This document shows, in pieces, positions 5,514-10,367 of a stretch of 64,000 nucleotides of DNA. The stretch is from the NCBI GenBank assembly GCA_009773335.1, contig WRPF01000001.1, forward strand, positions 1 to 64,000. The letters are read 5' to 3'. The notes under the pieces are model-generated. The model made no database searches. It was given only the letters and a program-made list of their open reading frames with translations, and was not told the DNA's origin. The position numbers and the translations under genes are program-made. The stretch is from Caulobacteraceae bacterium. Its GTDB lineage: Bacteria; Pseudomonadota; Alphaproteobacteria; Caulobacterales; Aquidulcibacteraceae. Positions within the stretch are counted from its first letter, which is position 1; each line of letters begins with the position of its first letter.

Positions 5514-5646
5514 ACTTGGCCTGCCGGCCGGCCCTGTCTTAGCCGCGCGCCGCCGCCGGGCAAGGGCCGCCCCGCCGTGGCGCATCCAGTTTCACCAATC
5601 GGCTTGACCGAGGAATCCCCAAGCCCTATGCCCCCGCTTCCCCCAA

Positions 5647-5723
<77 letters not shown>

Positions 5724-5913
5724 TGGGGCGCATCCCCCAGATTGCCGATAGCCTCCTCGTGCCGGGGGCGTCGGCCTGTTGGCCGACCCCGAATGCTGAC
5801 CGACCCCGCGTCCTTTCGCACCCGCAGCACGGTTGCCACCCAACGAGGGCGCCGGTAGCTTCCGCCCCGCTGATTTGCCCGGTCGACCGCCGGCCCCGAG
5901 GACCAACGCCGCC

Positions 5914-6279
5914 ATGAACGGACTGCTCGTCGAATACCTCCCGATCGTGATTTTCCTCGTGATCGCCGCAGCCATGGGCGTCGGCTTCATGGCCGCAGCG
6001 TGGGTGCTGGCGCCCAAGAGTCCGGACAAGGAGAAAGTCTCGGCCTACGAGTGCGGCTTCAATGCGTTCGACGACGCGCGCATGAAGTTCGACGTGAAGT
6101 TCTATCTCGTCGCCATCCTGTTCATCATCTTCGACCTCGAGGTCGCATTCCTGTTCCCGTGGGCGATCACGCTTGAGCAGGGCAATCTCTTCGCCTTCTG
6201 GTCGATGATGACGTTTCTCGGCGTGCTGACGATCGGTTTCATCTACGAATGGAAGAAGGGCGCGCTCGAATGGCAATAG
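5914..6279 (+). CDS. nuoA: NADH-quinone oxidoreductase subunit A
   Basis: [25 protein letters not shown]...[44 protein letters not shown]. Confidence 0.96.
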
Positions 6280-6830
6280 TGCCTGCAAACGCTGCCGGAC
6301 GCGCGGGCGTCGAGGGCGGGTTCCCGGTGAAGCCGGACGATCCGTTCTACACGGGCCTGTCGAATGAACTCGCCGACAAGGGCTTTCTCGTTGCAGCGGC
6401 CGACGATCTCATCACGTGGGCCCGAACGGGCTCGCTGATGTGGATGACGTTCGGCCTCGCGTGCTGTGCGGTCGAGATGATGCAGATGGCGATGCCGCGC
6501 TATGACGTGGAGCGCTTCGGCTTTGCGCCGCGCGGCAGTCCGCGCCAGTCCGACGTGATGATCGTGGCGGGCACGCTGACCAACAAGATGGCGCCGGCCC
6601 TGCGCAAGGTTTACGACCAGATGCCGAACCCGCGGTACGTGATCTCGATGGGATCGTGCGCAAACGGCGGCGGCTACTACCACTACAGCTACGCCGTCGT
6701 GCGCGGCTGTGACCGCGTGGTGCCGGTGGACATCTACGTGCCGGGCTGCCCGCCGACGGCCGAAGCGCTACTCTACGGCGTTCTCGCGCTGCAGAAGAAG
6801 ATCCGGCGCGAGGGAACCATCGAACGATGA
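6270..6830 (+). CDS. nuoB: NADH-quinone oxidoreductase subunit B
   Basis: [62 protein letters not shown]. Confidence 0.97.
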
Positions 6831-7447
6831 CCGACGTCGTGAAACCGCTGACGCCAGCCGAAGAACTGGCGATGCACGTGTCGGGCGCCATGCCCGGCGC
6901 GGTGGACAATACGGTCATTGCATTCGACGAGGTGACCCTGGAGGCCAAGGCCGACCAGATCATCCCGTTGCTGATCTTCCTGCGCGACGATCCGCGTTGC
7001 CAGTTCCAGACGCTGATCGACATCTGCGGCGTGGACTATCCCGAACGCGTGCAGCGCTTCGACGTGGTCTACCATCTGCTGTCGATGCGGAAGAACAAGC
7101 GCATCCGCATCAAGATCCGCACCGATGAAACCACGCCGGTGAGCTCCGCGATTCCCGTCTATCCCGCCGCCGACTGGTTCGAGCGCGAGACGTTCGACAT
7201 GTACGGCGTGCTGTTCAACGGCCACCCGGACCTGCGCCGCCTGCTCACGGACTACGGCTTCCAGGGCTTCCCGCTGCGCAAGGACTTTCCGCTCACGGGG
7301 CACGTTGAAGTGCGCTACGACCCCGAACAGCAGCGCGTGGTCTACGAGCCCGTGAAGCTTCCGCAGGCGTACCGCAATTTCGATTTCCTCTCGCCGTGGG
7401 AGGGGATGAACGAAATCCTGCCCGGCGACGAAAAGGCCAAGGGCTAG
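6827..7447 (+). CDS. nuoC: NADH-quinone oxidoreductase subunit C
   Basis: [65 protein letters not shown]. Confidence 0.96.
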
Positions 7448-7480
7448 GCGAATGGCGAATGGCGAGTGGCGAATGGGGGG
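7448..7480 (+). repeat. Left arm of perfect 33-bp terminal inverted repeat (heptamer-built)
   Basis: GCGAAT GGCGAAT GGCGAGT GGCGAAT GGGGGG; exact reverse complement of 7876-7908. Confidence 0.95.
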
Positions 7481-7485
7481 GCAAA

Positions 7486-7875
7486 GTGAGCGACGCGCGC
7501 ATACGCTCCTATCGCGACCTGACCATCTGGCAGGATGCGATGACGCTCGCCGAAACGGTCTATCGGCTCACGTCTGCTTTTCCGAAAGACGAACTCTATG
7601 GAATGACTTCGCAGATGCGGAGGGCTTCCGTCTCAATTGCTGCAAACATCGCCGAGGGGCACGGTCGAGAGCATACCAAGCCTTTCATTCAGTTTCTCCG
7701 AATTGCGCAGGGGTCGCTCAAGGAACTGGAAACGCATTTTCTGCTCGCCGAACGGGTGGGTTTGTTGGCGTCGGAGCAGACGGCGGAACCCATCATCCAA
7801 TGCACCTCTCTTGGAAAGCGGATGCGATCCCTGATCCGCTCGCTGCAGGAGCGCATCGGCGCCACAAAAGATTGA
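7486..7875 (+). CDS. Four-helix-bundle protein, 23S rRNA intervening-sequence protein (S23/IVP) family
   Basis: IRSYRDLTIWQDAMTLAETVYRLTSAFPKDELYGMTSQMRRASVSIAANIAEGHGREHTKPFIQFLRIAQGSLKELETHFLLAERVGLL matches the family hallmark (YGLTSQxRRAxVSIxxNIAEG). Confidence 0.92.
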   Translation: MSDARIRSYRDLTIWQDAMTLAETVYRLTSAFPKDELYGMTSQMRRASVSIAANIAEGHGREHTKPFIQFLRIAQGSLKELETHFLLAERVGLLASEQTAEPIIQCTSLGKRMRSLIRSLQERIGATKD

Positions 7876-7908
7876 CCCCCCATTCGCCACTCGCCATTCG
7901 CCATTCGC
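7876..7908 (-). repeat. Right arm of perfect 33-bp terminal inverted repeat
   Basis: CCCCCCATTCGCCACTCGCCATTCGCCATTCGC, reverse complement of 7448-7480. Confidence 0.95.
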
Positions 7909-7923
7909 GCCGGGAGGCAATTC

Positions 7924-9135
7924 ATGGCTGACGACGCAACCAATCTCCCCGCGCTTGAAGAAGAAAAGCGCACTTTCACGATCAACTTTGGGCCGCAGCA
8001 TCCTGCCGCGCACGGCGTTTTGCGTCTGGTTCTGGAACTGGACGGCGAAGTCGTCGAGCGCGTCGATCCGCATATCGGCCTGCTGCATCGCGGCACCGAG
8101 AAGCTGATCGAGTACAAGACGTATCTCCAGGCGCTGCCGTACTTCGACCGCCTCGACTACGTCGCGCCGATGAACCAGGAGCACGCCTTCTGCCTGGCGA
8201 TCGAGAAGATGCTCGGCATCGAAGTCCCGCGCCGCGCCTCGATCATCCGCGTGCTCTTCTCCGAAATCGGCCGCGTCCTCAGCCACATCCTCAACGTCAC
8301 CACGCAGGCGCTCGACGTCGGCGCGCTGACCCCGCCGGTGTGGGGCTTCGAGGAACGCGAAAAGCTGATGATCTTCTACGAGCGCGCCTCGGGAAGCCGT
8401 CTGCACGCGAACTATTTCCGGCCGGGCGGCGTCCACCAGGATCTCACGCCGCAGCTGATCGCCGACATCGCCCGATGGGCTGAAGAATTTCCGAAGGCGC
8501 TCGACGACATCGAGACACTGCTGACCGGCAACCGCATCTTCAAGCAGCGCAACGTCGACATCGGCGTGGTCAGCGTCGAGGACGCCTACGCCTACGGCTT
8601 CACCGGCGTGATGGTGCGCGGCTCCGGCATGGCGTGGGATCTGCGCCGGTCGCAACCCTACGAGATCTACGACGAACTGAAGTTCAAGATTCCCGTCGGA
8701 AAGAACGGCGATTGCTACGACCGCTATCTGTGCCGCTGCGACGAGATGCGCGAGAGCGTCGAGATCATCAAGCAGTGCTGCGCGCTGCTGGCGACGACGC
8801 CCGGCCCGGTGCTGCCGGAGCGCTCGAAGGTCGTGCCCCCGCGCCGCGCCGAGATGAAGAACTCGATGGAAGCGCTCATCCATCACTTCAAGCTTTACAC
8901 TGAAGGCTTCCACGTCGGCCCGGGTGAAGTCTATGCGTGCGTCGAGGCGCCGAAGGGTGAGTTCGGCGTCTATCTCGTGGCCGACGGCACGAACCGTCCG
9001 TACCGCGTGAAGATCAAGGCGCCGGGCTTCCCGCACCTGCAGGCGATGGACCACCTCTGCAAGGGCCACATGCTCGCCGACGTGTCCGCCATCCTCGGCT
9101 CGCTCGACATCGTGTTCGGGGAAATCGATCGTTGA
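7924..9135 (+). CDS. nuoD: NADH-quinone oxidoreductase subunit D
   Basis: [63 protein letters not shown]; 403 aa. Confidence 0.98.
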
Positions 9136-9464
9136 CGCCAGCTGAAGTCGTGCAGGCCCAGCTCGACGCCTACAACGCGCAGGACGTCGATGCGCTGTGC
9201 GCCTCCTATACCGAGGACTGCGTGCTTGCGGGCTTCAACGGCGATGTCACGTCACGCGGCCGCCACAGCCTGCGCGAGCGTCATGTGAACCTGTTCGCGC
9301 AGTTTCCGCAGAACAAAGCGCGACTCGTGCACCGTGCGGTGGCAGGCGACTACGTGATCGACCATGAGCACGTGACGCGCGCGCCCGGCGGCGAGGAATT
9401 CGAAGTCGTGGTGGTCTATGCATTCCGCGACGGGCTCATCGCGCGCGCGGATTTCATCAGGTAA
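9132..9464 (+). CDS. NTF2/SnoaL-like domain protein
   Basis: [43 protein letters not shown]...ADFIR; overlaps nuoD stop. Confidence 0.8.
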
Positions 9465-9496: not shown

Positions 9497-9931
9497 ATGC
9501 ACCTCTATCTCTGGATCGAAGCGGCGGTGATCGGTGGCATCGTGGCTGCGTTCGTCATCCAGACGTTCGTCCTGTTCAGGCCGGAGCACGTCGAGCACCA
9601 TCCCGTGCGCGTGTGGATCGGCGCGATGGTGCAGGGGCTGATCGTGGGCGTATTGGGCGGGGCGGTGCTGCTGCCGCTGCGGCTGAGCTTTCTCGTGCCG
9701 GAAATCCCCGGACCGCCGCAGGCGGTGGCGTCGACGGCGGTGCTGCCGGCGTTCGTGCTGCTGCTGTTCATCCGCCGCGGCCTTCTGGCGCGGGCGCCGC
9801 TGATCGGCCCATACCTGCGCGCCTACCGGCGGGCGGCGCTCAAGCACGGCATCGACGTCGCCAAGGCGCGGCTGATCCGCCTTGAATCCATGGACAGAAA
9901 GCAACGCGCCGAGGCGCCGACGGACCCTTGA
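9497..9931 (+). CDS. Hypothetical membrane protein
   Basis: 144 aa with about three hydrophobic segments; coupled to the downstream NTF2-like ORF. Confidence 0.7.
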   Translation: MHLYLWIEAAVIGGIVAAFVIQTFVLFRPEHVEHHPVRVWIGAMVQGLIVGVLGGAVLLPLRLSFLVPEIPGPPQAVASTAVLPAFVLLLFIRRGLLARAPLIGPYLRAYRRAALKHGIDVAKARLIRLESMDRKQRAEAPTDP

Positions 9932-10308
9932 CGCGGGGCCGCAGGAGCACGAACGCAGGGGCCATGCGCCGCATCCCCGATCCGCCCCAGGTCATCGTCC
10001 AGAAGCTGACCGCCGCCTTCAACAAGCACGATCTCGACGCCGTCAGCGTGCTGATCGCGGCCAACTGCGTCGTGGCGGCGCATGGCGGGGAGACCGAGCA
10101 GGTGGGCGCGCCCGCCATCTGCGCGCAGTACCACGCCGCCTTCGAGGAGCGCCCGAGGCTGCGCATCGGCGTCATGGGCCGCATGGTGCAGGGGAACATC
10201 GTCGTCCAGCACGAATCGCTCAGCCGGGGGCTGGGCGTCGGCGAGCGGCGCATCGCGGTCTATACCGTGAACGGTGAGAAGGTGACGCGGGTCGAGTTCA
10301 TCCGCTGA
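9928..10308 (+). CDS. NTF2/SnoaL-like domain protein (paralogue of 9132-9464)
   Basis: VIVQKLTAAFNKHDLDAVSVLIAANCVVAAHGGETEQVGAPAICAQYHAAF...VEFIR; start may be 9964. Confidence 0.7.
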   Translation: MTRGRRSTNAGAMRRIPDPPQVIVQKLTAAFNKHDLDAVSVLIAANCVVAAHGGETEQVGAPAICAQYHAAFEERPRLRIGVMGRMVQGNIVVQHESLSRGLGVGERRIAVYTVNGEKVTRVEFIR

Positions 10309-10367
10309 CGGTGACAAGACAGGGCGGGCGCTGCTATGCGCTGGCCTCCAGACTCACGGGAAAATCC

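Follow-up and report, generated by a model that had tools for sequence, protein, structure and literature searches.

Results

An inverted-repeat element between nuoC and nuoD

The window (the whole stretch of 64,000 nt that was analysed, taken from genome G000) carries nuoC (6827-7447) and nuoD (7924-9135) on its forward strand, both assigned as open reading frames and by Pfam, in agreement with the first-pass annotation, which had been made from the letters alone. Between these host genes lies an element of 461 nt, made up of a left arm (7448-7484), a gene with a GTG start that encodes a 129-residue four-helix-bundle protein of the IVP/S23 family (7486-7875) and a right arm (7872-7908), which is the reverse complement of the left; all of these read on the forward strand. 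The arms are 97% complementary over 37 nt and, as already claimed, exact reverse complements over 33 nt (7448-7480 and 7876-7908), built from the heptamers GGCGAAT and GGCGAGT. The nuoC stop codon (TAG, 7445-7447) is followed on the very next base by the left arm, which, when read from 7447, runs GGCGAAT, GGCGAAT, GGCGAGT, GGCGAAT and then GGGGGGG. This inner G run immediately precedes the start codon of IVP, for which it may act as a ribosome-binding site. The right arm opens at the IVP stop codon and closes 3 nt, and not 2 nt as first counted, ahead of the nuoD Shine-Dalgarno sequence (GGGAGG, 7912-7917).

The transcript of the element is predicted to fold into a long stem (z = −4.9 against dinucleotide shuffles). 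Given this fold and the recurrence of the same heptamer array elsewhere in the genome, where a reversed control pattern returned no matches, the inverted arms are not a product of chance. The IVP gene is the only gene of the element, with no recombinase or transposase gene inside; Rfam gave no match at 6800-8300 and no sigma-70-like promoter was found within 5600-9300. The Pfam matches of both flanks and the Rfam search at the locus identify the host as a nuo mRNA operon and not a 23S rRNA gene; complementary termini around an open reading frame are present, as in the intervening sequences (IVS) of 23S rRNA. Downstream of nuoD, there are two SnoaL_2-like reading frames (9132-9461 and 9928-10305) and one with no Pfam match (9497-9928) ahead of a nuoE-like frame at 10311, so this nuo operon holds further genes that do not belong to nuo.

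The IVP/S23 protein

Assignment to the 23S rRNA IVP/S23 family, proposed at first reading, is confirmed by PF05635 (125.4 bits, cut-off 33.8), TIGR02436 (124 bits, cut-off 24) and NF008911 (168.9 bits, cut-off 137). The bAvd Pfam model scored 20 bits, below its cut-off of 40, and PHROG 3206, ‘Avd protein of DGR’, matched IVP with E = 1.2e-6. An AlphaFold2 model of IVP (mean pLDDT 94.9) has four helices, and its closest solved structures are 2gsc (XCC0516 of Xanthomonas campestris, the best match, with E = 7e-25 against IVP) and 2rld (S23 family), followed by the Avd chains of diversity-generating retroelements (DGRs), 4dwl (TM 0.74 on query length) and 8ub7. The predicted model supports an Avd-like four-helix-bundle fold for IVP, and the suggestion that Avd is a structural relative holds in this comparison.

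Across 48 diverse homologues, eleven columns are invariant (P33, Q43, S50, N54, A56, E57, G58, R61, G76, E80 and T83). In 12 of 13 divergent pairs, dN/dS lay between 0.04 and 0.15, which indicates that the protein is maintained by purifying selection; in the remaining pair dS was saturated, and three near-identical pairs were uninformative. To our knowledge, IVP has no known catalytic motif, and although structures of S23/IVP proteins have been solved, their function is not known. We found no IVP match in phages and no match to IVP in the defence-system library.

Inverted heptamer arms at other IVP loci

The first ten IVP loci inspected, from the window’s genome and its relatives, all had flanking inverted repeats of heptamer-like units. 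We then scored 88 loci from Alphaproteobacteria, Cyanobacteria, Acidobacteria, Planctomycetes, Chloroflexi, Nitrospirae, an archaeon and others. The first-pass annotation had named absence of the repeats from other IVP loci as grounds for dropping its reading; we found the opposite, with inverted flanking arms above the 99th percentile at 73 of the 88 loci by a dinucleotide-shuffle control and at 76 by a shifted-flank control. The flanks have a sharp 7-nt period, with a lag-7 autocorrelation of 0.44 upstream and 0.41 downstream against a background of 0.25. The heptamer itself varies by locus (GGCGAAT, TAGGCAG, GGTGAAT, TAGGGAA, GGGTGTA and others), while the two arms of any one locus match: the median pairing score was 41 for arms of the same locus and 18 for mispaired arms. 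Since different loci have heptamers in common, mispairing is too strict a control by itself, and shuffled and shifted flanks were added for this reason. Among further alphaproteobacterial IVP loci, arms were clear or partial in seven of ten.

Within the arms, sense-strand G-U mismatches were not in excess over A-C mismatches (61 vs 53, p = 0.51), so this comparison gives no indication that selection maintains the arms as a stem in RNA.

Two variations on this anatomy were seen. In a few lineages a unit of 8 nt replaces that of 7, as in IVP elements of the Mesorhizobium/Brucella group (L124, L144, L149, L156 and L162; unit TAGGGCAG/TAGGGGAG). In one genome (G021; L032, L036-L038), two IVP genes have decayed while their arms can still be made out; one of these genes lies between reading frames that we read by eye as glyA and nrdR.

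Placement within operons

The left arm follows the upstream same-strand stop codon at a median distance of 0 nt (59 loci), nearly always within ~15 nt. By a longest-ORF heuristic, the element shares its strand with the gene upstream in 59 of 73 cases and with the gene downstream in 57 of 70. Annotated plasmid cases place the element co-directionally in integrase, conjugation and suf operons. On records of Riemerella anatipestifer typed as plasmids (L236, 1585-3932), an IVP gene has an iron-sulfur assembly accessory gene on one side and sufB on the other; lepA is present on these records too, and they could be pieces of a chromosome.

Of 96 loci, 36 have IVP at the nuoC-nuoD junction, and most of these are from Rhizobiales. 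The well-supported branches of the IVP tree require that the nuoC-nuoD label was gained or lost three times or more, which makes occupancy of this junction a mixture of inheritance and renewed use. These label changes establish neither a single vertical origin nor wholly independent insertions, and much of the occupancy could be due to inheritance. The spacer between nuoC and nuoD ranges from ~4 to ~900 nt in relatives, several of which have other inserts there, including one of 262 nt in a species of the same genus (G001).

Filled and empty sites on plasmids

The first-pass annotation had proposed an element of insertion type, and this stands: inverted ends recur at other IVP loci and empty sites exist elsewhere. 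Among plasmids of Nostocales that are ~97% identical, the IVP element is present in two (L235 and L238) and absent from four (L239-L242). The empty site reads AAAAAGTAATTAACAAAT, where TAA ends the upstream gene, and the filled site reads AAAAAGTAAT-[element]-GTAATTAAC, with a 5-bp flank overlap (GTAAT) that spans this stop codon. From one filled copy to the other, the left arm differs by two heptamers. A second plasmid site occurs in three states: carrying IVP, carrying a heptamer element that has no gene, and empty. At a third, the element stands in place of ~10 nt of target. The fourth has its upstream gene cut short near the end, with a stop codon provided by the element. A decayed remnant, consisting of the left arm and the 5′ part of an IVP gene, lies on plasmid E of Nostoc sp. 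C052 (L243, 2064-2270), at a site that is filled or empty elsewhere.

A gene-less element of ~209 bp that shares these heptamers lies on an Aulosira plasmid (L250) and is missing from a second plasmid of that strain (L255) with flanks 94% identical, leaving a 2-bp flank overlap; copies that resemble it occur on many plasmids without its flanks. We found no constant target-site duplication (overlaps of 5, 2 and 0 bp at three sites and a difference of ~40 bp at one), so any such duplication is short and variable.

Gene-less hairpins in the window’s genome and its relatives

The window’s genome has a single IVP gene. A search of this genome for the arm array, as the first-pass annotation had advised, returned three more inverted pairs of this heptamer class, none of which encloses a gene: between groES and groEL, between rpsK and rpoA and in the linker of mutL. 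The reversed control pattern gave 0 matches. That annotation had read a selfish or regulatory element here; its insertion character stands, and it proves to be one of a class with dispersed gene-less copies.

Between groES and groEL, hairpins of GGCGAAT type occur in G000, G012 and G017 and one of a different heptamer in G022, while the spacers of G001, G002 (both of the same genus as G000), G018 and G015 are 50-64 nt long and have no hairpin. Gene-less copies with terminal inverted repeats at otherwise empty sites, as expected of MITEs, are thus found both here and in the Aulosira pair L250 and L255. G012 and G022 have hairpins and no IVP gene. The mutL hairpin (L025, 1485-1561, on contig C266 of G000) is read in frame and takes the place of a linker of similar length; its heptamer has no stop codons on either strand, unlike the TAG-bearing heptamers.

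Heptamer arrays and IVP across genomes

Over related genomes, and with a pattern drawn from these same IVP loci, GGCGART arrays were found in five of six IVP-bearing and three of 35 IVP-less genomes among 41 relatives (p = 0.0004), while arrays on two or more contigs were found in 3 of 10 IVP-bearing and 2 of 182 IVP-less genomes among 192 of the class (p = 0.001). In a set of 40 IVP-bearing genomes, ranked by similarity to this IVP, 35 had arrays and 28 had >12 hits, against one of the 182 IVP-less alphaproteobacteria; five of the 40 had no array with the pattern used. The reversed control was at or near zero in most of these 40 genomes and raised in some cyanobacteria and two others. The association is partly circular, because the 40-genome sample and the pattern come from the same IVP loci, which is lessened by subtracting hits within the loci. 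Outside the IVP locus, RGCGART arrays are commoner in genomes whose IVP arms are themselves RGCGART (p = 0.0013 overall and 0.015 within alphaproteobacteria).

Arrays occur in some IVP-less alphaproteobacteria too: G163 has many dispersed heptamer arrays, and in G044 and G146 the arrays are long runs in tandem, (AGTCAGT)n and (CGGCAGT)n. These are not explained by a model based on IVP unless the gene was lost there.

Reverse transcriptases (RTs) occur in 3 of 6 IVP-bearing and 13 of 35 IVP-less relatives and so do not track IVP in this sample. The window’s genome has three RVT_1 hits and five Y1 hits; its IVP contig (C126) has no RVT_1 match, the three hits lying on C48, C27 and C272. Two other genomes, G028 and G032, have IVP and no RT. 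The 100% complete genome G026 has two IVP genes, ~37 array hits and no match to RVT_1 or Y1_Tnp. Dependence on an RT, as the analogy with Avd would have it, and dependence on a Y1/RAYT transposase are both unsupported, since G026 has a match to neither.

Discussion

The element is not an rRNA IVS, a RAYT system or a DGR; its protein is a member of the S23/IVP family. We think it probable that it is a mobile element that encodes IVP, has MITE-like partners and works much as REPIN/RAYT systems do, with an unrelated protein. Sequence comparison shows the anatomy and how general it is, insertion at empty sites, dispersed gene-less copies tied to IVP-bearing genomes and purifying selection on IVP. 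An element of ~460 bp, with two inverted heptamer arrays around one IVP/S23 gene, inserts between the genes of an operon, as a rule co-directionally and where the upstream gene stops; such siting would let it be expressed from the host transcript. MITE-like gene-less partners, as hairpins of ~60-215 nt with the same arms, are dispersed through the genome at sites that include groES-groEL, rpsK-rpoA and, in frame, the linker of mutL. Most likely, IVP would recognise the heptamer hairpin of its own class and enable copies to spread in trans, the strand chemistry coming either from host enzymes or from a yet unrecognised activity of IVP. That IVP acts on DNA hairpins is the simplest inference, and a DNA-level route with IVP as the mobilising factor would fit it. 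If so, this would be a class of mobile element without a recognised recombination enzyme, and it would account for hairpins at stop codons in nuo, groESL, suf and ribosomal-protein operons. Counting against this reading are the lack of a known catalytic motif in IVP, the inconstant flank overlaps, the hairpins or arrays of IVP-less G012, G022 and G163, the IVP-bearing genomes with no array by the pattern used and a nuoC-nuoD occupancy that may largely be inherited.

The 23S rRNA IVS offers a different model, acting on RNA. The two share a protein family, complementary ends around an open reading frame, tandem heptamers beside it and a similar size (428 nt in Coxiella, 461 nt here). In Coxiella burnetii, the heptamers stand ahead of the S23 frame in a number of units that varies between strains, and the rRNA IVS is cut by RNase III (PMC4990558). 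Applied to nuo, RNase III would cut the stem formed by the arms and release the IVP segment, nuoC and nuoD would persist as separate messages and the element would survive by being harmless, spreading rarely and incidentally. Co-directional siting between a stop codon and a Shine-Dalgarno sequence and the strong predicted stem are both in keeping with this account. However, co-direction can also arise from selection for expression, selection on the sense RNA predicts the G-U bias that the arms lack, and gene-less copies at many loci and their association with IVP are left unexplained; we regard this account as unlikely. Here, the host is an mRNA operon, and there are dispersed gene-less copies and both empty and filled sites, unlike in the rRNA IVS. 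The Coxiella IVS has itself been suspected of being a mobile element, with the reading frame needed for mobility (PMC4990558).

By analogy with REPINs, which are gene-less hairpins tied to RAYTs (PMC3116915), or with the Avd of DGRs, the hairpins might instead be moved by another enzyme, a Y1/RAYT transposase or an RT, with IVP as passenger, regulator or RT accessory. IVP is predicted to share the fold of Avd, including the Avd chains of a DGR RT complex, and has the PHROG 3206 match; the window’s genome encodes candidates of both kinds. Against this stand the G026 genome, with its IVP genes and arrays and neither enzyme, the IVP-bearing genomes without RT, the similar RT frequencies with and without IVP (3 of 6 and 13 of 35) and the bAvd score below cut-off, and we hold such an arrangement to be rather doubtful. 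Distinctly improbable, in our judgement, is a host regulatory device, in which hairpins after stop codons adjust how stable operon messages are or how they are translated, and IVP regulates these hairpins in trans by binding RNA, being kept by selection and not by selfish spread. Hairpins in groESL, ribosomal and nuo operons, the frequent and by appearance partly inherited occupancy of nuoC-nuoD and purifying selection on IVP would all suit a regulator, and a TAACTGA-binding post-transcriptional regulator has been proposed for the heptamers of Beggiatoaceae (PMC4679880). Yet the sites are species-specific and empty in species of the same genus, elements sit on plasmids in unrelated genes, one insertion truncates its upstream gene, and neighbours have different heptamer classes at the same site (G000 and G022 at groES-groEL).

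As an analogy, REPIN/RAYT is the closest working one for the mobile element that we favour: there too, short inverted-repeat hairpins are dispersed, mostly intergenic and matched by a coding partner that is flanked by the same repeats, and different repeat classes pair with different partner genes (PMC3116915). The arms here are tandem heptamers, unlike the REP/GTAG-type palindromes, and the partner is a PF05635 four-helix bundle and not a Y1 HUH transposase, Y1_Tnp being unmatched in G026. With Avd/bAvd the likeness is one of predicted fold (4dwl, TM 0.74), whereas IVP falls under the bAvd cut-off and its contig has no RT match.

Heptamer arrays are known separately from Nostoc, Xanthomonas, Beggiatoaceae and the rRNA IVS of Coxiella, with no agreed origin, and we found no open-licence paper that links IVP genes with dispersed heptamer hairpins. 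Elements of the kind described here, apparently an unrecognised and widespread class of mobile element with heptamer-hairpin ends, are candidate agents for these puzzling repeats. More broadly, and tentatively, IVP/S23 proteins may be the mobilising factors of cross-phylum heptamer-hairpin elements that have no known transposase, recombinase or reverse transcriptase, each IVP reading its own heptamer class and the rRNA IVS heptamers, the cyanobacterial and Xanthomonas arrays and the trnL-intron stems being gene-carrying or gene-less forms. Linking IVP with heptamers would give both a testable role, that of a small Avd-like bundle that spreads heptamer hairpins. We know of no carrier protein for the trnL stems or the TAACTGA repeats of Beggiatoaceae, and a link of either to IVP is one that we only infer.

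In Nostoc, the P6b stems of the trnL intron consist of 7-nt repeats with gain and loss of units (PMC4476775). The TAACTGA repeats have no evident transfer mechanism, and their author speculated that a repeat-binding protein might be the mobile element (PMC4679880). Both are heptamer arrays, as are those described here, although the TAACTGA sets are direct and not inverted. Nostoc also has GGGGA(C/T)T heptamer repeats, and each Xanthomonas genome holds ~185 arrays of GGGAATC, among which there are ~70-75 inverted pairs; these were interpreted as G-quadruplex repeats, with no link to IVP (PMC4692102). The Xanthomonas arrays resemble ours in that inverted heptamer pairs lie close after an upstream reading frame, with groES among the marked sites (PMC4692102). 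Xanthomonas campestris also encodes an IVP, the protein XCC0516 (2gsc) compared above.
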